Below, one piece after another: positions 4,673-61,523 of a DNA stretch of 64,000 bases. Below the pieces are notes generated by a model. That model was not told the origin of the DNA and made no database searches. It was given only the letters and a program-made list of their open reading frames with translations. Position numbers and translations under genes: made by a program. The stretch's first letter is position 1. The number at the start of each line of letters is the position of its first letter. The DNA is from a virus. The stretch lies in IMG/VR virus record IMGVR_UViG_3300047497_000053, positions 1-64,000 of that record; one strand, given 5' to 3'.

Positions 4673-4743
4673 GCGCGCATATTTGCCATACCTGTGCGTA
4701 TTTTGTACTGGTGCCGGCAATGACCCCGAGGAAGAAGAAATGA
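4669..4743 (+). CDS. Possible 24-aa coupling peptide
   Basis: A 24-codon frame whose ATG overlaps the upstream stop and whose TGA overlaps the ATG of the DUF1566 gene, following the coupling style of the cassette. It has a CHTC motif and ends in a Lys/Arg run. It may be a real peptide or only a translational bridge. Confidence 0.35.
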   Translation: MSAHICHTCAYFVLVPAMTPRKKK

Positions 4744-5168
4744 CGATCTACACCAAAATAGGCGCCGAAGGCCAAGACTTGCCGCCGGACGCGACCGGTC
4801 ACCAGGCCGTGCGGGTCGAGCACCCGCTGCTCGCAAAACCACTGATCTTCACCGCGTCCCGCTCACCCAAGGAATTGACGTATAAAGAGGCGCTCAAGTG
4901 GGCCGAAAGCCTTGAGATCAACGGCTGGTCCTGGCGCGTCCCTACCGTTGAGGAAGCGCTGTTCCTGCCGGATCGATGCAAATATCCAGCGCTTGATTCG
5001 AGCTACTTTTCCGACTTCGACGGCTACGAATGGCTTTGGACGTCGACGCCGGACGCCGGATCACCGTCCGAGTACGCGTGGTTCGTCGCCTCGGGCGCTG
5101 GCGGTTCCCTCCGCGGTCCTCAGAGCGATCGGCTCTGCGTGCGCGCGGTCCGCGCCGGTCAGGTCTAG
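4740..5168 (+). CDS. DUF1566 (lectin-fold) protein A with diversified C terminus
   Basis: 142 residues. It carries DUF1566/Lcl_C landmarks: TYKEALKWAESL, then WSWRVPTVEEAL, then PALDSSYFSD and WLWTST, ending in VRAVRAGQ. This is the formylglycine/C-type-lectin-like fold frequently used as a target of diversity-generating retroelements. The last 101 nt are nearly identical to the end of the next gene except at 13 first or second codon positions (see the repeat entries), while the rest of the two proteins is clearly divergent. The ATG at 4740 follows GAGGAAG. A longer TTG start at 4683 is less likely. Confidence 0.75.
   Translation: MTIYTKIGAEGQDLPPDATGHQAVRVEHPLLAKPLIFTASRSPKELTYKEALKWAESLEINGWSWRVPTVEEALFLPDRCKYPALDSSYFSDFDGYEWLWTSTPDAGSPSEYAWFVASGAGGSLRGPQSDRLCVRAVRAGQV
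5062..5162 (+). repeat. Variable-region-like repeat, copy A
   Basis: A 101-nt segment paired with 5651-5751. Identical flanks (33 nt internal and 24 nt at the 3' end) surround eight variable codons: TAC, CTC, GGT, CCT, GAT, CGG, CTC and TGC. No third-position difference from copy B occurs. Confidence 0.8.
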
Positions 5169-5202
5169 GAAATTTGCCTAGCCGCAACATCAGGAACACG
5201 CA

Positions 5203-5772
5203 ATGAGCTCACTTGCCGACGACATCCGCCGCCTCATCACTCAGCGCCTCGCGCACGCGACCGATATCGACATTCTGCAACTCGCGAGCGCGCTGTGCGC
5301 CAACGAGGATCAGGTAACGCAGCCGCAAGCAATTAAGCGGCCTCGCTTCACGAAGATCAACGACGAAAGGTTATTCGTGCTCGATGATTCCTCGTCCGAC
5401 TGGGTCGCCGTTTACGATTCACTCCACGACCTGACCTGGACGCGCAAGACGCTAGATTGCGGGGAAGTGAATCACGCCGACGCGATGCGTGCCGCCGGCG
5501 CCGTCAAGCTGCTGGGAGCTTCCGACTGGCGCGCGCCGACGATTCAGGAGCGCTTATCCATCGTCGATTACGCCCGGATCGATCCGGCGCTCGACACCGA
5601 TTACTTCGACGGGTCCAGCGTCTTGGAATGTACAGGCACGATTGCGGCTGCACCGTCCGAGGTCGCGTGGTTCGTCGCCTCGGGCGCTGGCGGTTCCTCC
5701 CGCTATCATCAGAGCCGTCTGGGCTACGTGCGCGCGGTCCGCGCCGGTCAGCAACTTGGGCGCGTTGATTGA
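5203..5772 (+). CDS. DUF1566 (lectin-fold) protein B with diversified C terminus
   Basis: 189 residues. An N-terminal helical extension (~1-60) precedes a DUF1566 domain: [50 protein letters not shown], then the C-terminal segment [11 protein letters not shown]...YVRAVRAGQ. The fold's usual WTST strand reads LECTGT here. The shared 3' segment is the putative diversified region; the exposed variable residues relative to protein A are V, S, Y, H, R, L, G and Y. A likely role is ligand or receptor binding, but no virion gene is adjacent and no export signal is evident. Confidence 0.75.
5651..5751 (+). repeat. Variable-region-like repeat, copy B
   Basis: Partner of 5062-5162. The variable codons here are GTC, TCC, TAT, CAT, CGT, CTG, GGC and TAC. 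Each pair could derive from AAC, AAT, CAT, CAG or TAC template codons by changes at adenines only. Confidence 0.8.
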
Positions 5773-51673: not shown

Positions 51674-53293
51674 TCAGGCGGGATAGAGGGGTTCGGCCTG
51701 TCGGCCGGGGTATATCTTCAAGGATTCTAATTCTTCGGCGCGTTCGGTGGCGCGACTGATGAGTCCATTGTCGCGCAAATGCCGCAGCGCCTGCGAAACC
51801 GTATCGGTTAAGTCATCGTGCTTGGAGTGCGGAAATTGCGACGCTTCCGAAATCACCATATCGGCAAACGTGTACTTGGGTGCATAAATAATCCCTTCCG
51901 CAAACAAGTGCTGCACTGAATACAAGCGTGATAATTTGTCCTGCGACTTTGGGTCAAACAGTTGCACGCCGAATTTCTTGTTGTAATACAAGCGCCTGAT
52001 TTCTTGCGCTACCGAGATGCCGGCCGCTTTGTTTTCAATGAGCAAGAGGTCCACCTTATGCTTGATGCAGCGGCGCGCGACTTCTTCCACCAGATTATGC
52101 AGTTCCAGCCGATCCCGCCATGCATCAATCATGATGACCTTGGGTGCGGTCTCGTTGTAACTGCGGTCAATCACCAGCGGCCGGCCTTGCGGGTCCACCA
52201 ATCGACCGGGATGCGCGACGGTATCCGTTGAGAACACGCCCCAGATGGTCAGCGCCGAGTAATCGTTTGACGTTTTCATCGTGTAGGCGGTGTCCAACGA
52301 CGCCAACACGAAATCAAGCGGCGGCAACGCTTCGGTTTCCCACACTTGCCACCACTCGCGCCGGATAATGCCACCGCCGATGGGTTCCGGACGCTGTTGC
52401 AATTGCCCATTCGCGATCATCGGACCCAATGATTTTTCAAGCGACCGCACGGCCGCTTCGTCAAACCGTTCAGGCCAGAGCAATTGGCCTTCAACGGTGC
52501 GCGGATCGCTCCAGCCGATGACGGTAGTGCGTGCTCGATCTGATTCATAGCGCATGGGCAGACAAAGATGAACCCATTCATCGCCGTTGGAATCCAATAT
52601 GTAGCCAGTCAGATCATCCTCGGCCAAACGCTGCTGAATCACGATGTACGCGCCCGTTGCCATATCGTTGAGGCGCGTGCTCATTGATTGCGTCCACCAA
52701 TCAATCGTCGTTTGGATGGCGGCTTCTGAGAAAGCTTCGCCGGCAGAATTCGGATCGTCCGCTATGATGCACGTCCCGCCCTCCCCAGTTACGCCCGCGC
52801 CGATGGACGTAATCAATCGTTCGCCGCCCTTGTCGTTGGTGAATCGTGACTTCGTGTTTTGATCGGATGTTAATTTGAAACGCGATCCCCAGCGTTCTTG
52901 ATACCATTGCGATTCAATGAGGCGACGGCTTTTAACGGAATCCCGAAGCGATAGTTTGTCCGCATAGGACGCATACAAAAACTGCGCGCCTGGACCGCAG
53001 ATGGGCCCGTGTGCGGGTTGCGCCCACACCCACGGCCCAAACGCCACAGAAATGAGGCTCGACTTGGCCATTCTTGGAGGGACGTTGACCACAAGCCGCT
53101 TAATATCGCCATCACAAACGGCCTGCAGGTGCTCCGCAATCGCTTGCACAACCCAACCGTCTTTCCACGGATTCGGATCAATATACCGCCACGCACTTCT
53201 CAAAAACTGATACAGCGATTGCTCACATTCGTATCGATTCACATCCAGAAGCTGCGCTTTCGGATCAAACGCTTGGCCGTTATAGTTCAGCAT
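51674..53293 (-). CDS. terL: Terminase large subunit
   Basis: 539 residues. Walker A VVNVPPRMAKSSL (~residue 70), acidic Walker B region GGTCIIADDPN, and the nuclease core LASLDTAYTMKTSNDYSALTIWG followed by LIENKAAGISVAQEI. It pumps and cuts concatemeric DNA during packaging. Follows the small subunit without gap. Confidence 0.9.
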   Translation of the reverse strand: MLNYNGQAFDPKAQLLDVNRYECEQSLYQFLRSAWRYIDPNPWKDGWVVQAIAEHLQAVCDGDIKRLVVNVPPRMAKSSLISVAFGPWVWAQPAHGPICGPGAQFLYASYADKLSLRDSVKSRRLIESQWYQERWGSRFKLTSDQNTKSRFTNDKGGERLITSIGAGVTGEGGTCIIADDPNSAGEAFSEAAIQTTIDWWTQSMSTRLNDMATGAYIVIQQRLAEDDLTGYILDSNGDEWVHLCLPMRYESDRARTTVIGWSDPRTVEGQLLWPERFDEAAVRSLEKSLGPMIANGQLQQRPEPIGGGIIRREWWQVWETEALPPLDFVLASLDTAYTMKTSNDYSALTIWGVFSTDTVAHPGRLVDPQGRPLVIDRSYNETAPKVIMIDAWRDRLELHNLVEEVARRCIKHKVDLLLIENKAAGISVAQEIRRLYYNKKFGVQLFDPKSQDKLSRLYSVQHLFAEGIIYAPKYTFADMVISEASQFPHSKHDDLTDTVSQALRHLRDNGLISRATERAEELESLKIYPGRQAEPLYPA

Positions 53294-53977
53294 TTACGAA
53301 TCGGCGTACGAATCCGAGTCGGAAGAATCGGAATCGGACCCATCATCGCCCGCCAGGTCGTCCAATATTTCAGCCGCACCCAATCCCGCGCGGGTCGCGT
53401 CGTCGGTCACCGCGTTCGGGCGGTTCACCACGCGCTCGCAGATCGCTTTCAACTGCGCGCGTTCTTCGTCGGTCAGCAACGATGAGTCAATCACGGGCGG
53501 CGCGGTCGTATCGTTCACTTCCACGCGCTTGGCGGCCGGCTTCCACGTATCGCCGCCCGCCCGCTCGAGCCACGCCAAGCCCACCTTGGCGGCCGAGGGG
53601 TCGTTGGTCGAGGTCGCGATCCTGAGCATGTTCCGGGTCACGTTTACCATGGCTTCCGCTTCGCCCGCGATGATTTCGGCCGCATAGTGCTTCTCAATGG
53701 TCTGGACCGGGATACACATGAGAGCCGCGATGTGCGAATGCGGCAAGCGCAGGCGCGCGTGCTCGCGCACCATGCGGGCAAATACGGGGGAGGGGTGCTC
53801 GCCCACGTTGCGCAGTTTTTCAATGCGCTCGGCGGTTTCGGCTTCGATGGCCTCCACGGTCTCGCGCATCCACGCGGCCAGCGTCTCGCGTTCGTCGGGG
53901 GCGACCGGCGGTCGGGAATCATAGGGATCGTCCGCACCAGAGCGGCCGATAAAAGTCACGCGGGGACGGCGGGCCAC
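53294..53977 (-). CDS. terS: Terminase small subunit-type protein
   Basis: 227 residues from a GTG at 53977. HTH segment RLPHSHIAALMCIPVQTIEKHYAAEI and a helical central part suit DNA recognition of the packaging initiation site. C terminus is acidic Ser/Asp-rich (DGSDSDSSDSDSYADS). The stop abuts the TerL start. Confidence 0.75.
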   Translation of the reverse strand: MARRPRVTFIGRSGADDPYDSRPPVAPDERETLAAWMRETVEAIEAETAERIEKLRNVGEHPSPVFARMVREHARLRLPHSHIAALMCIPVQTIEKHYAAEIIAGEAEAMVNVTRNMLRIATSTNDPSAAKVGLAWLERAGGDTWKPAAKRVEVNDTTAPPVIDSSLLTDEERAQLKAICERVVNRPNAVTDDATRAGLGAAEILDDLAGDDGSDSDSSDSDSYADS

Positions 53978-55099: not shown

Positions 55100-55488
55100 A
55101 TCGCCCCCTCGGTCACTTTCCGAAAATTCACGGACATGCTGTAGTAGCCGTTGGATTCGCCGCACCAGCGAATCGTCACGCCGCCTTTTGCCGTGTCAAT
55201 TTTATAGAACGTCCACAATGCCTCTGATTTGGGTTCCGCGCGACCTTCCGGTTTATCATGGCTTTCAACCTCCTCGGCAATCAAAATCGGGCTGCCGATG
55301 ATATCCGCCAAATCGCCGACAATTTCTTCAACCTCAACTGATTCACAGCAATCTTGCTCGTGATACGCCTGAAACGTTTCTCCATTGTCGCAGATGAAAT
55401 CAATCGCGTAACCGCCCTCGGCAACCACCACTGAAGTTAATGTTTTGCCGACCAGCACATCAAACGTAGCCCGACCCCCGTAACTCAC
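55096..55488 (-). CDS. DUF7448-type protein
   Basis: 130 residues. LVGKTLTSVVVAEGGYAIDFICDNGETFQAYHEQDCCESVEVEEIVGDLADIIGSPILIAEE, then WTFYKIDTAKGGVTIRWCGESNGYYSMSVNF. This matches phage DUF7448 proteins. Function unknown. Confidence 0.75.
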   Translation of the reverse strand: MSYGGRATFDVLVGKTLTSVVVAEGGYAIDFICDNGETFQAYHEQDCCESVEVEEIVGDLADIIGSPILIAEEVESHDKPEGRAEPKSEALWTFYKIDTAKGGVTIRWCGESNGYYSMSVNFRKVTEGAM

Positions 55489-55751
55489 GACTCATCTCCG
55501 CGCACCGGCAGCTCCGCCTGCAAATCATATCCGCTGCGCCGGCCGACCGTGCGCGCCCACTTGCCACGGCGTTCCAACAAACCCCGCACGTAGTCCTCCA
55601 ATTTCAACCCAGTCTCCCACGCCTCCATCGCCAGCGCCGCGTGCAAGGATTTTGACATGCGTAGTTTCATGAGCTCGGTGCGCGGTAGCGGCGGCCGGGC
55701 GCGCAGCGGCTTCGGCGGTGCAAGTCGTTCATATAAAGGTACCCGGCTCAC
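55485..55751 (-). CDS. RHH-like small regulator
   Basis: 88 residues. KLRMSKSLHAALAMEAWETGLKLEDYVRGLLERR follows the beta-helix-helix order of ribbon-helix-helix DNA-binding proteins. Coupled to its neighbours. Confidence 0.55.
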   Translation of the reverse strand: MSRVPLYERLAPPKPLRARPPLPRTELMKLRMSKSLHAALAMEAWETGLKLEDYVRGLLERRGKWARTVGRRSGYDLQAELPVRGDES

Positions 55752-56152
55752 AAGCGAGGACCGTCGCTCGAGCGACCGTCGCTCGAGCGACCGTCGCTTA
55801 AGCGACCCTGTGCGGCCCGCGCCACGGGTTCGTCCAGCGACGGCGCAGCCGCCAACCGACCTTTCGCGGCCGCGACTTCGCGCACGTGCGCGACCTCGGT
55901 GACAACATCGCTCGCGTCGGTGGCCGCGTTCGGTTCATCGTCCTCATCGTCGGGACCCTCGTCCTGGCCCACCGTCACATCCAGCACGTCCGCGCCCGCG
56001 CGCAGCGCCGTGTACACCGCATCGGCCGACATCACCGCCGCATCAAAGCGCTCGTTGGCCACCGCGCGCACGGCGCTATTTAACGACGCGGCGCGCACGT
56101 AGCGGATCACCGCGCCGGTTGCCACGTCGGTCACAACATATAATCGGGTCAT
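55748..56152 (-). CDS. Hypothetical protein with SSDGR repeat tail
   Basis: 134 residues. RLYVVTDVATGAVIRYVRAASLNSAVRAVAN (two-stranded start with helix), an acidic middle (QDEGPDDEDDEPNAATD) and a C-terminal SSDGR repeat from a 15-bp DNA repeat. Function unknown. Confidence 0.55.
   Translation of the reverse strand: MTRLYVVTDVATGAVIRYVRAASLNSAVRAVANERFDAAVMSADAVYTALRAGADVLDVTVGQDEGPDDEDDEPNAATDASDVVTEVAHVREVAAAKGRLAAAPSLDEPVARAAQGRLSDGRSSDGRSSDGPRL
55759..55803 (-). repeat. 15-bp coding repeat x3
   Basis: GACCGTCGCTCGAGC three times in tandem (the third with two changes), encoding the SSDGR tail of the 134-aa protein. Confidence 0.85.
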
Positions 56153-56355
56153 CGTTTATCCTCGGCTAATTCGCCCTGCCCCACCTCGGCCTCGGACACC
56201 ACCGCTGGCTTCACCGCCAGCGTCAGCACCCACGTCACGAAATCCTGGATCGTCATATCACGTTCGCCGGCCGCCGCGTGCAACTGCCGATGCACGTCGG
56301 GGCAGACGTGCACGTTCAAGCGCTTGTGCCCGAAGATTTTGCGGGGTCGGCCCAT
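56149..56355 (-). CDS. Ribbon-helix-helix/HicB-like regulator
   Basis: 68 residues. KRLNVHVCPDVHRQLHAAAGERDMTIQDFVTWVLTLAV gives the beta-helix-helix DNA-binding fold. Two 19-bp direct repeats lie just upstream (56371-56428), a candidate operator for autoregulation. Confidence 0.65.
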   Translation of the reverse strand: MGRPRKIFGHKRLNVHVCPDVHRQLHAAAGERDMTIQDFVTWVLTLAVKPAVVSEAEVGQGELAEDKR

Positions 56356-56370
56356 GATTTACTGGTGCCT

Positions 56371-56428
56371 CAATTTAATACTGGAATGGCCCATGGGTTA
56401 ACGATCCTTCAATTTAATACTGGAATGG
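56371..56428. promoter_or_regulatory. Two 19-bp direct repeats upstream of an RHH gene
   Basis: CAATTTAATACTGGAATGG at 56371-56389 and 56410-56428, 39 bp apart (start to start), in the gap between the RHH gene at 56149 and the gene at 56513. AT-rich inside GC-rich DNA and resembling a promoter/operator. Confidence 0.6.
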
Positions 56429-56512: not shown

Positions 56513-57121
56513 CTAAACCCGACCCTTCGCGATCTGCTCATCGCGAATCAGAAAAAATTCGTCGCGGGACATGGGAAGCCAAGCGCCCGATATCCACCCA
56601 CTGAAATTCTCATAGTCTGCCTCCCGGCTCTCCGTGATAAACCGGGGCGGCAGTCTTGAAGTCAGCGGCCACGCCGTCAATTTCTTCTTTGCGGGCTTTT
56701 CGAGCTCGCGCGGCGGTGGCTGATTGCTTGGCGCCGTTGCCAGCACTGCTGCCCTATTTTCGGGGCGCGTCGGGGCGACTGCCGTGACCTCGGTCTGCGT
56801 GACCTCAGCATCATCAGTTTCCCCGGTCGGGTATTTTGCGTCCTCCCTGGCCTGCGCCCGAGCCAGAATCGCCGCAAACCGACGCGCCTTGCCGGCCGGT
56901 ACGTCAATCACGCAAGGCGTCACCTTGCCCCACGACCCTTCAACGCCCAGCGAGGTGTTCCTCAGTTCGTTGCGCAGCATACCGACCACACCTTCTTGAA
57001 TCGTCTGTCCATGTTCGGCGAATAACGTCTCCAATTCTTCGTACATACTCGGTGGTACGAACACATGGAGCTTGACCCTCTTTTTGGTATCAAACTTGTC
57101 AGCGTAATACTCACGCGGCAT
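56513..57121 (-). CDS. Hypothetical regulator-like protein
   Basis: 202 residues. VKLHVFVPPSMYEELETLFAEHGQTIQEGVVGMLRNEL resembles an RHH-type N-terminal domain; the middle is low complexity and the C terminus is aromatic (NFSGWISGAWLP). First gene of the leftward accessory block, with a GGAG ribosome-binding site at 57128-57131. Confidence 0.55.
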   Translation of the reverse strand: MPREYYADKFDTKKRVKLHVFVPPSMYEELETLFAEHGQTIQEGVVGMLRNELRNTSLGVEGSWGKVTPCVIDVPAGKARRFAAILARAQAREDAKYPTGETDDAEVTQTEVTAVAPTRPENRAAVLATAPSNQPPPRELEKPAKKKLTAWPLTSRLPPRFITESREADYENFSGWISGAWLPMSRDEFFLIRDEQIAKGRV

Positions 57122-57139: not shown

Positions 57140-57500
57140 GGTATGTGACTGTATGTATCATTTATTGTGAACCTAATCAGTGGTTTTTTGTGTGGGTGTT
57201 GCTGTAACTGGGTTGGCCATATTTTAAGTGACTGGCTTGGTTACCTTTTAAGTGAGTGTTTGTGTCTCTGTGAGTGTCACATTTCGTGTGGGTGTATCAG
57301 TGCCTTACAATCCCATTTATACACTCACATGTTGAGTAATAGGATATGCTCCTGTATCGGTGACTGTTCAAGTGCGTTTATGAGTCACATTTATGGTGAG
57401 TGTTTATGCCACTCACATGGTGGCAGTTAATACACCAAATCAGTGATACCCCGGATACTCAATCAGTCACATACCTTGGTACACGTAGTGTGATATACAT
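57140..57500. promoter_or_regulatory. GTGAGTG-repeat intergenic region
   Basis: GT-rich, AT-rich stretch with at least five GTGAGTGT/ACACTCAC sites in both orientations (57251, 57270, 57321, 57396, 57411) plus many GTGACT/AGTCAC near-matches. No convincing ORF. Likely operator or origin-proximal sequence upstream of the leftward genes. Confidence 0.55.
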
Positions 57501-57860
57501 TACACCATTACAGGTACGGTGCCGGTATGCGGTCGGCGCAAAGAACCAGTACTTCGGGTCCCTCGCTGGCTAAAAAGCGGGGGTACCCCACCCCCAAAAA
57601 CCTGGCAGGAAACGGGCGGGCGCCTATTGGGAGGGTGTGTTCGTTTCGGCCGGCGCGTCGCTCAGCATCGCGGCGATCGATCCAGGGCCGTAAATGCGCC
57701 CAGATGGCGCTAGGTAGCCCGCTGCGCTGAGTTCTCCAGCTATGCCGCGTTAATGTCAGCCCTTGGGCTAGGGGCTGGCTGGCGAGCGCTTGAGCGGCTG
57801 GCGACGCGAGACAGCGCCGATCCGTGGCGACGGCCGAATGCGATTGATGCATTGCGGCAT
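57501..57860. other. GC-rich gap without a convincing gene
   Basis: No reading frame here looks like a real protein. On the minus strand a GGGGG-loop-CCCCC stem followed by GCTTTTT at 57572-57596 could terminate leftward transcription from the replication block. Confidence 0.4.
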
Positions 57861-58163
57861 CGCATAATAACCATTATGTTAAATTAAAATCAGCGTTTCA
57901 CGCGCCTGAACAGCCAATTCGACCCATTTTGTAACAGCGCGCTAATACAAATGTCGCGTTTGAGATGGTTTATTGCGCAGATTATGCGGCATCACATGCC
58001 GGTAATTTATCCACTCTGCGGTCATTTGCCGATCTGGTTTGCGAGATCGCGAGCGTGGCGAGGGCGATTGGCCCGCATATATGAATCAAATTCATACAAA
58101 CCGCCGTTTTTTATGAAATCCGCTCATGTTGACGACCGACGTATAAGAGGTCATTTGTTGCGT

Positions 58164-58186
58164 TAGTAAACCAGCCCGGTTTACTA
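58164..58186. repeat. Inverted repeat TAGTAAACC-agccc-GGTTTACTA
   Basis: 9-bp perfect arms separated by 5 bp. Confidence 0.85.
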
Positions 58187-58197
58187 GCGATTTTCTC

Positions 58198-58213
58198 TAT
58201 ATCGTACGATATA
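58198..58213. repeat. Perfect palindrome TATATCGTACGATATA
   Basis: 16-bp, no mismatch, 5 bp from the next palindrome. Confidence 0.85.
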
Positions 58214-58217
58214 AATA

Positions 58218-58237
58218 ACACTATCTTAAGATAGTGT
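58218..58237. repeat. Perfect palindrome ACACTATCTTAAGATAGTGT
   Basis: 20-bp, no mismatch; each end is an AGTGT/ACACT site of the iteron set. Confidence 0.9.
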
Positions 58238-58606
58238 AATTAGAGTGTTGCTTATAACCCATTGATCTATATCTTATTATTACACTCTAACAGTATATAC
58301 ACTATATATAGAACATATATACGTTAGTAAGTAGAGGATATAGCCACACCCATAGCTGACGCAGACAACAGATTACTAGAGGTTATGGGCGAAACAAGTG
58401 TTAGAAGTGTTAGAGTGTAATTTCCCGAATGGGATCAAAGACTTAAGTCATACACTAAGATATTTTTATTTTTGTCAGAGTGTATCAAGTGTTATTGGCA
58501 TGCTATTTGCTAATCGGAACGGGAGAGTCAGAAATACCCGCCGCTGCCAACGCGCAGCCAATAACCTTATGATGCTAACATACGAGCGTGATTGAAGGAG
58601 AACGCG

Positions 58607-58966
58607 ATGGCTGAATCGGTGATGGCTGAATCGTCGGAACCGGTTTCGCTAGACAACGGATCGCACGCAGCGCTGCCCAAATACCTGCAATTTGCAGCCG
58701 CTGAGGCGCAGGTTACGGTTGAACTGAATTGTTCGGTTGAATACATCGGCGACGGCGTCTATGAATGGACCATGTTCATGCGCCGTGATCCGAGTGTTGC
58801 TCGTAAGCGTGGCAAACGAGGCGAATGGAATCGCATTGCGTTGGCGTCGGGCACGGCGTTTAGCCGCAAGGCCGCATTTAAAGCTGCGCGTCGCGCGATT
58901 GCGGGGCATCGCAATGCGTTGGCACGGGATGCCTATGCGAGGATTGTGGGCGATCAGCGCGGATAG
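58607..58966 (+). CDS. Hypothetical 119-aa protein
   Basis: Start ATG 58607 follows GAAGGAGAACGCG. The central part YIGDGVYEWTMFMRRDPS, then a basic helix-rich C terminus (SRKAAFKAARRAIAGHRNALARDAY) suggests nucleic-acid binding. It is the only rightward gene in the right half and adjoins the iteron region, so it could be an origin-binding or regulatory protein. Not recognised. Confidence 0.6.
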   Translation: MAESVMAESSEPVSLDNGSHAALPKYLQFAAAEAQVTVELNCSVEYIGDGVYEWTMFMRRDPSVARKRGKRGEWNRIALASGTAFSRKAAFKAARRAIAGHRNALARDAYARIVGDQRG

Positions 58967-59029: not shown

Positions 59030-61321
59030 TTATCGGTCCGCGTTGTGCGGCGCAATCCGATCCGCGCGGGGAAACCACGCGCGCTGACCGCGAATCGTTT
59101 GCTGGATGAAATGCGCATCGCGCAAGATCGTTGCGATGCGGTTTTTTTCCTTCTGAGTCTGCTTGTACAACGGCATCTCCAAGCCGAACTGAAGGATGTC
59201 GGCCGAGGTCAGCAAGCGGTGCGTGCCGTGCCGTTTGTTTTCCTCGATGAGATTTTCCGCGAAACGCAGCGTGGCTTCGCGCCAGAGGTCTGGTTCGTGC
59301 CGGGCGGCCTGTTCGGCCTGCGTTTCATCGTCGGGCATTTCGTGCCACGTGTAGCCCTTGCGATAGTGGTGCACCGCTTCGGCAAAGAGATGATCGCGCT
59401 GTTGGGCTAGTGCATCTAAGTCAATGTGGGTGCAGCGGATGGGCCAAAAGCGGCGCTTGCCCAAAAGACTGATGAGATAGTCATCCGTCTCGGAGGTCGC
59501 TGCGAACACGCAACCGCGTGGGTGATCTTGGGCCAACCGTCCGTAAGACTCGCGAAAGCGATCCCGGCGTGTTGTGATGGTGGAGAGAATCACCGAATAA
59601 TCGCGTTGCCGAAACCCGGCCATGTCCGGAATTTCCACGAGCCAGCAGCCTTGGATGGCCTCCAGAAATGCGCGATCCCCGATGGCGGTGTTGACGGTTT
59701 CGTACCACTCACCGCCCAGCATCGCGAGGAGCGACGTTTTACCGCGTCCCATCGTGCCCTCGAGCACCGGCATGTGATCGACTTGGCAGCCGGGTTGAAA
59801 GGCGCGCGCGACCATGGAGATGAGCCAGTTGCGGCCGAGGCATTGCAGGTAGTGCGTGTTCTCGGCGCTCGTGATATCGGTGAGCCAATTCTCCAGTCTG
59901 GGTTGGCCGTCCCACACGAGGGCGTTGAGATAATCGTGCAGCGAATTTTTGGCGTTCACGGTCGCCGCGTGCAGCACCGCCTCGTGCATGAGACCTGAGT
60001 TGAATTTGGAGAGTCGCATGGATTGCTGCACGAAAATGGTGAGTTCGCGCGTGTCTTGGTCGCTCCACTCGCGTTTCGTGCCCTTCATGGTGTGCCAGAC
60101 TTTGTGTTGAAACGTGTCCAGCCAGATTTTGCCGTTGACGTGCGGATGGCGCAGGATAATTGAGCTGGCGTTTGCGAGAGTGGGAAATGGCAATCCTTGG
60201 TGCGATTTGGCGAGGCCCAGACTGTCCCAATCGGTGAGCGACGCGTGCCCGTTGATGACTCGGACGGGTTCATTGATGTCGTATTCGTTGGGTTCGGACG
60301 TGTCGTCGTGGGGTTCGTATTCGTGTGCGTCGTCGGGTTCGCCGAGTGCGGAAACGGTCGTCGCGGGTGTCTGCGGCGCGTTAATCGGCACAGCCCGCTG
60401 GTCAATGTAGACCGCGATTCGCGCCGCATCCCACCCATCGGCAATCGCGTCCGCTACATCCCAACCGCGTGGACGGTCAGGTTCTGGGTTGACAACACAG
60501 ATGTGGTTACAGATCGGCGTCAGCGCGTGGATGATGTCCGTCGCGGCCTTGCGTCCTGGATCGTCCGCGTCTGGCCAGATTGTGACGCGTCGGCCCGTGA
60601 GCGGCGTCCAATCGCTTTGCTTGACGGCAATCGCACCGCCGGCCCACGTGATCACGATGGCATCTAAAATCGGCGGCTGATTGGGGTCGGCGATGAGTTT
60701 GGTGAATTCGTCCGCGCAGCGTTCGCCCTCGACGATAATCACGGGGCGGCTGGGGTTCGCTTGTAGTTCGCGGCGGTGATACAACGGCCTCGGTGCAGGA
60801 TATGCGGTCGCAGACCACTTCCCCGCTCGCCACGTGTATTGCAGGAACCGCTTGGCGATGTCGTTGCCCTGCACGATATCGTAGCGCAGCACCCAAAAGT
60901 CGTTGCCGTACTCGGCGCGGTGCGACGGTTCCCCATACGTCCAGTGCGGCGTGGGCGGCGTAGCATCGTCCGGAATGCGCTCAGGCGGCGCACGCGCGGG
61001 TTTGGGCGCGATGCGCGGTAATTCTCGTCCCAAGGGCGGAAAGGCCCCCACGTCACGGCTCAAGAGGTCGTACGCGGCGCCGTTCTCGATCTGACGCAGA
61101 GCCGCCACGGCTGAGATGATGTCGCCGCCCGCGCGTCCCGTAGCGAAATGCTGCCACTTGCCCGTGTCCAATGAGATGGACCACGAATCGCCGGGGCCGC
61201 CCTTGGATGTGGATTCGCCGATCCACTGCCGGCCGACTTTGCGACCGCCGAAATACTGCGGCAGTAGCAATTCGGCTTGCGCCAAACAGGCCGCCGCAAG
61301 GCCCTTAAAATCGTGGGCCAC
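59030..61321 (-). CDS. TOPRIM primase fused to VapE-type helicase
   Basis: 763 residues. N-terminal zinc-free primase-like region with WSISLDTGKWQHFATGRAGGDIISAVA; TOPRIM motif VIIVEGERCADEF then VTIWPDADDPGR (~200-260); a VapE/SF3-like ATPase with VLEGTMGRGKTSLLAMLGGEWY (Walker A, ~525), WLVEIPDMAGF (Walker B-like) and ATSETDDYL. It primes and unwinds DNA at the fork. The key replication gene of the window. Confidence 0.85.
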   Translation of the reverse strand: MAHDFKGLAAACLAQAELLLPQYFGGRKVGRQWIGESTSKGGPGDSWSISLDTGKWQHFATGRAGGDIISAVAALRQIENGAAYDLLSRDVGAFPPLGRELPRIAPKPARAPPERIPDDATPPTPHWTYGEPSHRAEYGNDFWVLRYDIVQGNDIAKRFLQYTWRAGKWSATAYPAPRPLYHRRELQANPSRPVIIVEGERCADEFTKLIADPNQPPILDAIVITWAGGAIAVKQSDWTPLTGRRVTIWPDADDPGRKAATDIIHALTPICNHICVVNPEPDRPRGWDVADAIADGWDAARIAVYIDQRAVPINAPQTPATTVSALGEPDDAHEYEPHDDTSEPNEYDINEPVRVINGHASLTDWDSLGLAKSHQGLPFPTLANASSIILRHPHVNGKIWLDTFQHKVWHTMKGTKREWSDQDTRELTIFVQQSMRLSKFNSGLMHEAVLHAATVNAKNSLHDYLNALVWDGQPRLENWLTDITSAENTHYLQCLGRNWLISMVARAFQPGCQVDHMPVLEGTMGRGKTSLLAMLGGEWYETVNTAIGDRAFLEAIQGCWLVEIPDMAGFRQRDYSVILSTITTRRDRFRESYGRLAQDHPRGCVFAATSETDDYLISLLGKRRFWPIRCTHIDLDALAQQRDHLFAEAVHHYRKGYTWHEMPDDETQAEQAARHEPDLWREATLRFAENLIEENKRHGTHRLLTSADILQFGLEMPLYKQTQKEKNRIATILRDAHFIQQTIRGQRAWFPRADRIAPHNADR

Positions 61322-61322
61322 G

Positions 61323-61523
61323 CTACGCCTGAGGCGTGGTCAGAAATTCGGCGGCGAGCTGCACACGCGCGTGGTAATCGGCGATCAGCATCTCAATGGC
61401 GAGCGAGCGATTCCCCCGGCCAATGGTATCCAGCGCGGCGTGCGATTCAGGGGAGAGCGAGACGGTCAACGGAATGCGGCGGGACCGACCTTTCAGTCGG
61501 GGCTGTCGATTGTTGTTATCCAT
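61323..61523 (-). CDS. Ribbon-helix-helix protein
   Basis: 66 residues. Basic N terminus (NRQPRLKGRSRR), then IPLTVSLSPESHAALDTIGRGNRSLAIEMLIADYHAR, a clear RHH fold. Located downstream of a decamer array (61631-61700), which may be its operator. Confidence 0.7.
   Translation of the reverse strand: MDNNNRQPRLKGRSRRIPLTVSLSPESHAALDTIGRGNRSLAIEMLIADYHARVQLAAEFLTTPQA

Follow-up and report, generated by a model that had tools for sequence, protein, structure and literature searches.

Genomic context

The window analysed here, 64,000 bp long, makes up most of a 66,219-bp virus record of IMG/VR (IMGVR_UViG_3300047497_000053). We considered the region at positions 57140-58606, for which the initial annotation had suggested a replication origin, a centromere-like site, a divergent control region or a protelomerase site. 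Its gene-poor character was borne out. It contains a candidate target site of XerC and XerD, the host enzymes that separate chromosomes, as well as a candidate replication origin and an array of short repeats (Table 1). To the right lies the gene for a 763-aa VapE-like primase-helicase, and to the left there is a row of small genes, several of them ribbon-helix-helix (RHH)-like, followed by terS, terL and the portal gene.

The genes for TerL, portal, head and tail-sheath-like proteins identify a tailed phage. It also encodes a Gam-like Gp157 protein and a RecT-like annealing protein, and because of the latter, dimers arising by homologous recombination are expected. At each end of the record (1-351 and 65951-66217) the sequence lies in 24-bp tandem repeats of one kind (ACCGACGTCGCGACCCGCGCCGCG-like). 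Thus the assembly broke in a repeat, and the genome is likely to be circularly mapped and nearly complete.

No record of the phage collection is similar to the window at the DNA level. No direct relatives were found via the small genes of the window, and none with its VapE as a single query, but an alignment of six VapE sequences did retrieve relatives. In total, 14 related phages were collected using portal, TerL and the VapE alignment, which gives 15 phages or records including the window. Below, W denotes the window phage, and numbers of the type L097 denote the loci of the relatives. The VapE proteins of the 14 relatives are 39-48% identical to that of W in the best segment. The order vapE, AT-rich gap, RHH and other small genes, terS, terL is kept wherever the contigs of the relatives extend far enough. 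The nearest relative of the late region is L010 (84-98% protein identity).

Table 1. Predicted features of the window and candidate Xer sites of related phages (XerC arm, centre, XerD arm)
Feature	Positions	Strand	Remarks
dif-like XerC/XerD site	57857..57884	+	XerC arm GCATCGCATAA, centre TAACCA, XerD arm TTATGTTAAAT; position conserved in relatives
Candidate replication origin	58198..58500	.	AT-rich core, 11 AGTGT(W)A iterons in both orientations, two perfect palindromes; function inferred
Stem-loop CGTTAGTAAACC-AGCCC-GGTTTACTAGCG	58161..58189	.	edge of the candidate origin; terminator-like on the + strand
VapE-like primase-helicase	59030..61321	-	Pfam VapE-like_dom, E 2.6e-63; presumed initiator/helicase
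GTGASTG/CASTCAC array	57140..57478	.	nine sites, facing either way, several with an 18-bp period; probably operators for the RHH-like gene
202-aa protein (p202), RHH-like N-terminus	56513..57121	-	predicted strand 15-19, helices 24-36 and 41-55; rest mostly of low confidence
68-aa RHH protein	56149..56355	-	HicB/Arc-like, below the Pfam cut-off
39-bp direct repeat TTCAATTTAATACTGGAATGG	56349..56428	.	two copies directly 5' of the 68-aa RHH gene; operator-like
Conserved G/C-rich non-coding element	57521..57607	-	74% identical to L097 across 94 alignment columns; flanked by the RHH gene and the Xer site
119-aa orphan gene	58607..58966	+	sole rightward-reading gene from the region; no family match
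Terminase small subunit (terS)	53294..53977	-	identified from synteny with relatives and its place before terL; distance to the Xer site 3.9 kb
Terminase large subunit (terL)	51674..53293	-	
Xer site of L097			ACTTCGCATAA TAGCCA GTATGACAAGC
Xer site of L098			ACTTCGCATAA TACCTA GTATGTAAAAC
Xer site of L099			ACTTCGCATAA TAACCA GTATGTTCAAT
Xer site of L101			ACTTCGCATAA TCCTTA TTATGTAACAT
Xer site of L102			ACTTCGCATAA TCGTTG ATATGTTAAAT
Xer site of L105			ACTACGCATAA TAACTA TTATGACAAAT
Xer site of L100			ACTTCGCATAA TGTAGA TAGTGTTAAAT; added by the scan
Xer site of L120			AATACGCATAA TGTATA TTATGGTAAAA; added by the scan

Candidate Xer sites next to vapE

The dif-like site of the window, situated between the AGTGT and GTGASTG clusters, has a 6-bp centre and matches the dif consensus at 20 of the 22 arm positions; 20 shuffled windows reached at most 16. 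Its core CATAA-TAACCA-TTATG has the expected form ATAA-centre-TTAT, which is degenerate in some relatives. The exact 18-base core CGCATAA-N6-TTATGTTAAAT is expected by chance approximately 1e-6 times per genome. We consider this site to be a putative target of XerC and XerD of the host.

Alignment of the gaps revealed a block common to seven phages, whose opposite strand consists of a XerC arm, 6 bp and a XerD arm. With the two sites added by a scan, nine of the 15 phages with related VapE carry a site in the gap on the vapE side. No further site above the threshold was observed in the loci of these nine phages, in other terL/portal loci or in more distant VapE loci, and none was found in the examined stretches of MW202675, CRP-902 and GB2A, which have the same portal/TerL type. 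The distance from the vapE stop codon to the site is 0.5-1.4 kb in seven measured members and about 2.4 kb in L102. In the seven members with terS located, the site lies 1.2-6.4 kb 5' of this gene.

The same arrangement of an 11-bp XerC arm, a short centre and an 11-bp XerD arm, with no recombinase beside it, is seen in chromosomal dif and in plasmid Xer sites (cer, psi and pdif/xrs of Acinetobacter), and plasmid xrs share with the phage sites a private central region. Unlike these, the phage site is found on a tailed phage, adjoining the candidate origin and upstream of the terminase genes. Exploitation of Xer is known from filamentous, micro- and tailless phages and from plasmids. No report of host-Xer sites in tailed phages was found in the open-licence literature, so an earlier description is possible.

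Central regions and recombinase genes

The central regions were compared with those of chromosomal sites from 249 Pseudomonadota genomes, 116 of which contained a dif-type site (133 sites; reversed control, 0). The chromosomal centres end in TA in 117 of the 133 cases (TGTATA 39, TGGATA 21, GATGTA 18, GATATA 11, TGAATA 10). An exact match to a sampled chromosomal dif was observed only for L120 (TGTATA), and seven of the nine phage centres are unlike the common types in this sample, which may not include the true host of the phages. The dif site of E. coli, GGTGCGCATAATGTATATTATGTTAAAT, occurs in 4751 of 5426 genomes, in a median of one place. Some bacterial genomes (G140, G148, G200) contain a pair of dif-type sites that face each other at a distance of about 110 bp; their centres are TTAATA and TCTACG, and they may belong to plasmids or dif modules. 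In Acinetobacter plasmids, Xer sites recombine with each other only if their central regions are closely related (PMC11705084). A private central region would thus direct recombination to a second copy of the phage site and not to chromosomal dif.

The opposite situation is that of the integrative mobile elements exploiting Xer (IMEX), such as phages CTX, VGJ and Lf and the gokushoviruses, which have a dif-like site and no integrase and integrate at dif by host XerCD. If the phages considered here behaved similarly, they would be temperate and the Xer site would be their attachment site. Indeed, no tyrosine integrase (PF00589) was found in any of the 15 records, filamentous and micro-phages are known to integrate in this way (PMC5357621, PMC7062461), and the centres of L120 and L100 (TGTATA and TGTAGA) resemble common chromosomal dif. 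However, IMEX centres match the host at least partly, whereas in these double-stranded DNA tailed phages the remaining seven centres match no chromosomal dif found. Phage genes flank the site on both sides in all nine contigs, which is the unjoined form, and integration at dif was not seen, since 84,980 species genomes contain no close relative of VapE (best identity 31% over the full length). Finally, the same class of site occurs in Vequintavirinae, which are generally regarded as strictly lytic. Integration at dif therefore seems improbable.

The sole serine resolvase among the 15 phages is encoded in the same gap of L106, a phage without the Xer site. A serine recombinase gene at L043 4669-5355 (also in L106 and L257) occupies the same intergenic place in a phage without the Xer site. 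One possibility is that the serine recombinase is a functional replacement for this site.

Candidate replication origin

The initial annotation listed 11 AGTGT/ACACT sites at 58218-58492, and exactly this number was recovered (+ strand: 58233, 58244, 58397, 58406, 58414, 58479, 58488; - strand: 58218, 58282, 58299, 58452). Dinucleotide shuffles (n=2000) contained 1.2 on average and 6 at most, and the cluster is the densest of its kind in the window. The blind test for the best 5-mer is weaker, as ATATA likewise reaches 11 and some 5-mer does so in 21 of the 2000 shuffles. Several iterons are spaced by 8-9 bp (AGTGTTAGA-AGTGTTAG-AGTGTAAT), and the GC content of the core is 26-42% per 100 bp. 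Hence the window contains clustered short repeats beside an AT-rich segment, as expected of an iteron origin.

Of the three perfect palindromes reported initially, two proved to be perfect: 58218-58237 (20 bp), the longest in 64 kb, and 58198-58213 (16 bp), among the next four. The third, 58164-58186, is an inverted repeat with a 9-bp stem and a 5-nt loop. Three palindromes so close together might suggest a protelomerase (telomere) site of a linear plasmid prophage. However, none exceeds 20 bp, no ResT/TelK protelomerase (PF16684) was found in the five records tested, nor any other member of the tyrosine recombinase family, and the contig ends meet elsewhere in one kind of tandem repeat, suggesting a circular map. 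A site of this type is extremely improbable.

In W, L097-L101, L104-L106 and L120 the GC content of the gap drops to 28-41% per 200 bp at its minimum. The gap repeats of W, L098, L099, L100, L104, L105 and L120 exceed all 200 shuffles, each with its own sequence (AGTGTA, GGACAG, CTTACAGT, TAGACAC, GATAGAT, GGTTCA and ACGTCAC, in this order), and in several relatives the repeats have an 8-9-bp spacing like that of the window. Neither the GC minimum nor iterons were observed in the gaps of L103, L107, L108 and L112. DnaA boxes are present in the gaps of L097, L098 and L099, the window having only a degenerate one. Absence of the repeats from close relatives had been named initially as evidence against their role. 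The AGTGT sequence is indeed absent there, but the arrangement is kept, with other iterons at the same locus.

Phage-specific iterons look like an origin with a co-evolving initiator, and VapE is the presumed initiator. Most likely, positions 58150-58500 are the origin used by the adjacent primase-helicase of the VapE/superfamily 3 (SF3) type; the initial suggestion of an origin next to the replication genes gains support from the iterons and AT-rich cores beside vapE in several relatives. In origins of SF3/VapE-like helicases (Rep of Staphylococcus aureus pathogenicity islands, SaPI; alpha of P4) an AT-rich core with short iterons at its side similarly adjoins the helicase gene. They differ in that the iterons of the window group are phage-specific and of a different sequence. 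The iterons and palindromes could instead have no role beyond that of transcription operators in a divergent control region, with the origin elsewhere. The divergent genes, the RHH regulators and the palindromes, typical of operators, agree with this; however, AT-rich cores and iterons are found beside the helicase gene in several relatives despite differing flanking small genes. We regard this explanation as possible but doubtful.

GTGASTG array and RHH-like genes

The set of GTGAGTG repeats described initially at 57251-57418 is real, but it extends further, to approximately 57470. Positions 57140-57500 contain five GTGAGTG and nine GTGASTG sites; the shuffle maxima are 2 and 3, and none of 2000 shuffles equals the observed counts. 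The proposal of a divergent control region fits this part of the locus, since the array is situated just 5' of the RHH-like gene. The predicted structure of p202 is reliable only for about the first 40 residues, and the PDB matches are weak, RHH proteins being among them. Together, p202 and the array probably represent a regulator and its operators. In L010 both are missing and a DNA-methyltransferase-like open reading frame (366-1151) is found in their place, so they form an exchangeable cassette. Four small RHH-like proteins are encoded within 6 kb (55485-55751, 56149-56355, 56513-57121 and 61323-61523).

A further possibility is that the Xer site serves a phage-plasmid, XerCD resolving dimers of an extrachromosomal lysogen and the RHH protein and the GTGASTG array being parts of a partition system. 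The iteron origin, the RHH genes (the L031 protein weakly matches ParG) and the private centres, as in plasmid xrs (PMC11705084), are compatible with this. Most circular plasmid prophages encode a Xer-type recombinase believed to resolve dimers (PMC8026635). They too need dimer resolution, but the window group encodes no such recombinase. No ParA (PF13614) was found in the 15 records, other NTPase types not having been searched, which also counts against the centromere-like site proposed initially. Among 72,556 plasmids the portal has relatives only in three distant records, which come from two Candidatus endosymbionts, and the nearest relative, L010, has neither p202 nor the array. A phage-plasmid is thus rather unlikely.

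Sites of the same class in other tailed phages

The pattern CGCATAA-N6-TTATGTTAAAT occurs in more than 120 stretches among the matches listed from IMG/VR, where 120 such sites have 60 different central regions; the reversed pattern yielded 0. Larger contigs with the site number 27; a terminase is present in 16 of them and an integrase in one. On the 5' side of the TerL N-terminal domain, at a distance of 0.2-1.8 kb, the site was found in 12 of the 16 contigs, and a second batch gave 19 of 22. In total, it is within 2 kb 5' of terL in 31 of the 38 contigs with Terminase_6N (p about 1e-12 and 1e-14 in the two batches, relatedness ignored). The pattern linked to terL recurs in approximately five TerL groups.

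Among cultured phages, rV5 and its relatives have arms identical to those of E. coli dif, and their centre is TAGGTA or TGGGTA; the site lies in a gap of 2.6 kb that contains no genes. The site was also found in EC152, 18-1-2, Pseudomonas phage M1 and Elizabethkingia phage EKP1, where it directly precedes the terminase gene in EKP1. The arms are again identical to E. coli dif in coliphages Gotham and ECP2309, which have the site in both copies of a 459-bp direct terminal repeat. In phiM5, a TerL relative of the largest group, the terminal repeat is directly 5' of terL and has no site. The linkage to terL and the placement in terminal repeats thus point to joining of genome ends by host XerCD.

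A known analogue is Cre-lox of P1, which circularises a terminally redundant genome and resolves dimers. There the site is likewise near the packaging region, but the recombinase is encoded by the phage, whereas here it would be XerCD of the host, and the sequences are unrelated. Chances seem about even that many tailed phages, lytic ones included, carry a private-centre host-Xer site in or beside terminal repeats or the packaging start and rely on XerCD of the host to bring their genomes into circular or monomeric form, as a widespread and overlooked host-borrowed counterpart of Cre-lox.

Proposed function of the region

We assign a probability of roughly 0.6 to the interpretation of the region as a replication and genome-topology locus of an integrase-less tailed phage, combining an iteron origin, a target of host XerC/XerD and an RHH operator array. 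The VapE-type SF3 primase-helicase would bind the AGTGT iterons and open the AT-rich core. XerC and XerD of the host would bind the dif-like site and join its copies at both ends of a terminally redundant linear genome, producing a circle for replication, and/or reduce dimeric circles to monomers. The repeats at 57140-57478 would serve the neighbouring RHH-like gene as operators or, with lower probability, be a centromere. The phage thus probably borrows XerC and XerD to turn its DNA into single circles. This retains part of the initial interpretation, which included neither the Xer site, the most informative element, nor the G/C-rich element.

Several observations weigh against this interpretation. 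Six of the 15 relatives have no detectable Xer site, which is therefore not essential in the group, and the arms are degenerate in L097-L100 and L102, with GTAT, ATAT or TAGT for TTAT. The iteron test failed in L101, L102, L103, L107, L108 and L112, and in L097 and L106 the gap repeats merely tied the shuffle maximum. The contigs with linked terL come from no more than about six TerL groups, so that independent events are fewer than the p values suggest, and the cultured TerL relatives checked (MEP301, phiM5, BcepC6B and others) have no site near terL. The placement in terminal repeats was observed for Gotham and ECP2309 and is presumed for the window phage. At dif, recombination by XerCD usually depends on FtsK when the cell divides, a requirement ill suited to a fast lytic cycle, and the phages showed no FtsK-gamma domain. 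XerCD binding, recombination and replication are inferred.

A candidate FtsK-gamma mimic by a coliphage site, annotated as 'DNA translocase FtsK' in phage nomo (L393, 52743-53006), was rejected, as Pfam finds no FtsK domain in it.

If the interpretation is correct, many integrase-less tailed phages use XerCD as a host factor to circularise their genomes or resolve dimers, variation of host xer genes could affect phage growth, and the Xer site marks the genome-end region in metagenomic contigs.

Other features

The G/C-rich element (GGGGGTGGGGTACCCCC..GGGACCCGAAGTACTGG) is kept in several relatives and may be terminator-, operator- or packaging-like, although no consistent shape was apparent by eye when the sequences were folded singly. 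In the early region, two neighbouring genes with Lcl C-terminal domains (Pfam PF07603) are situated at 4683-5772, an unusual cargo.
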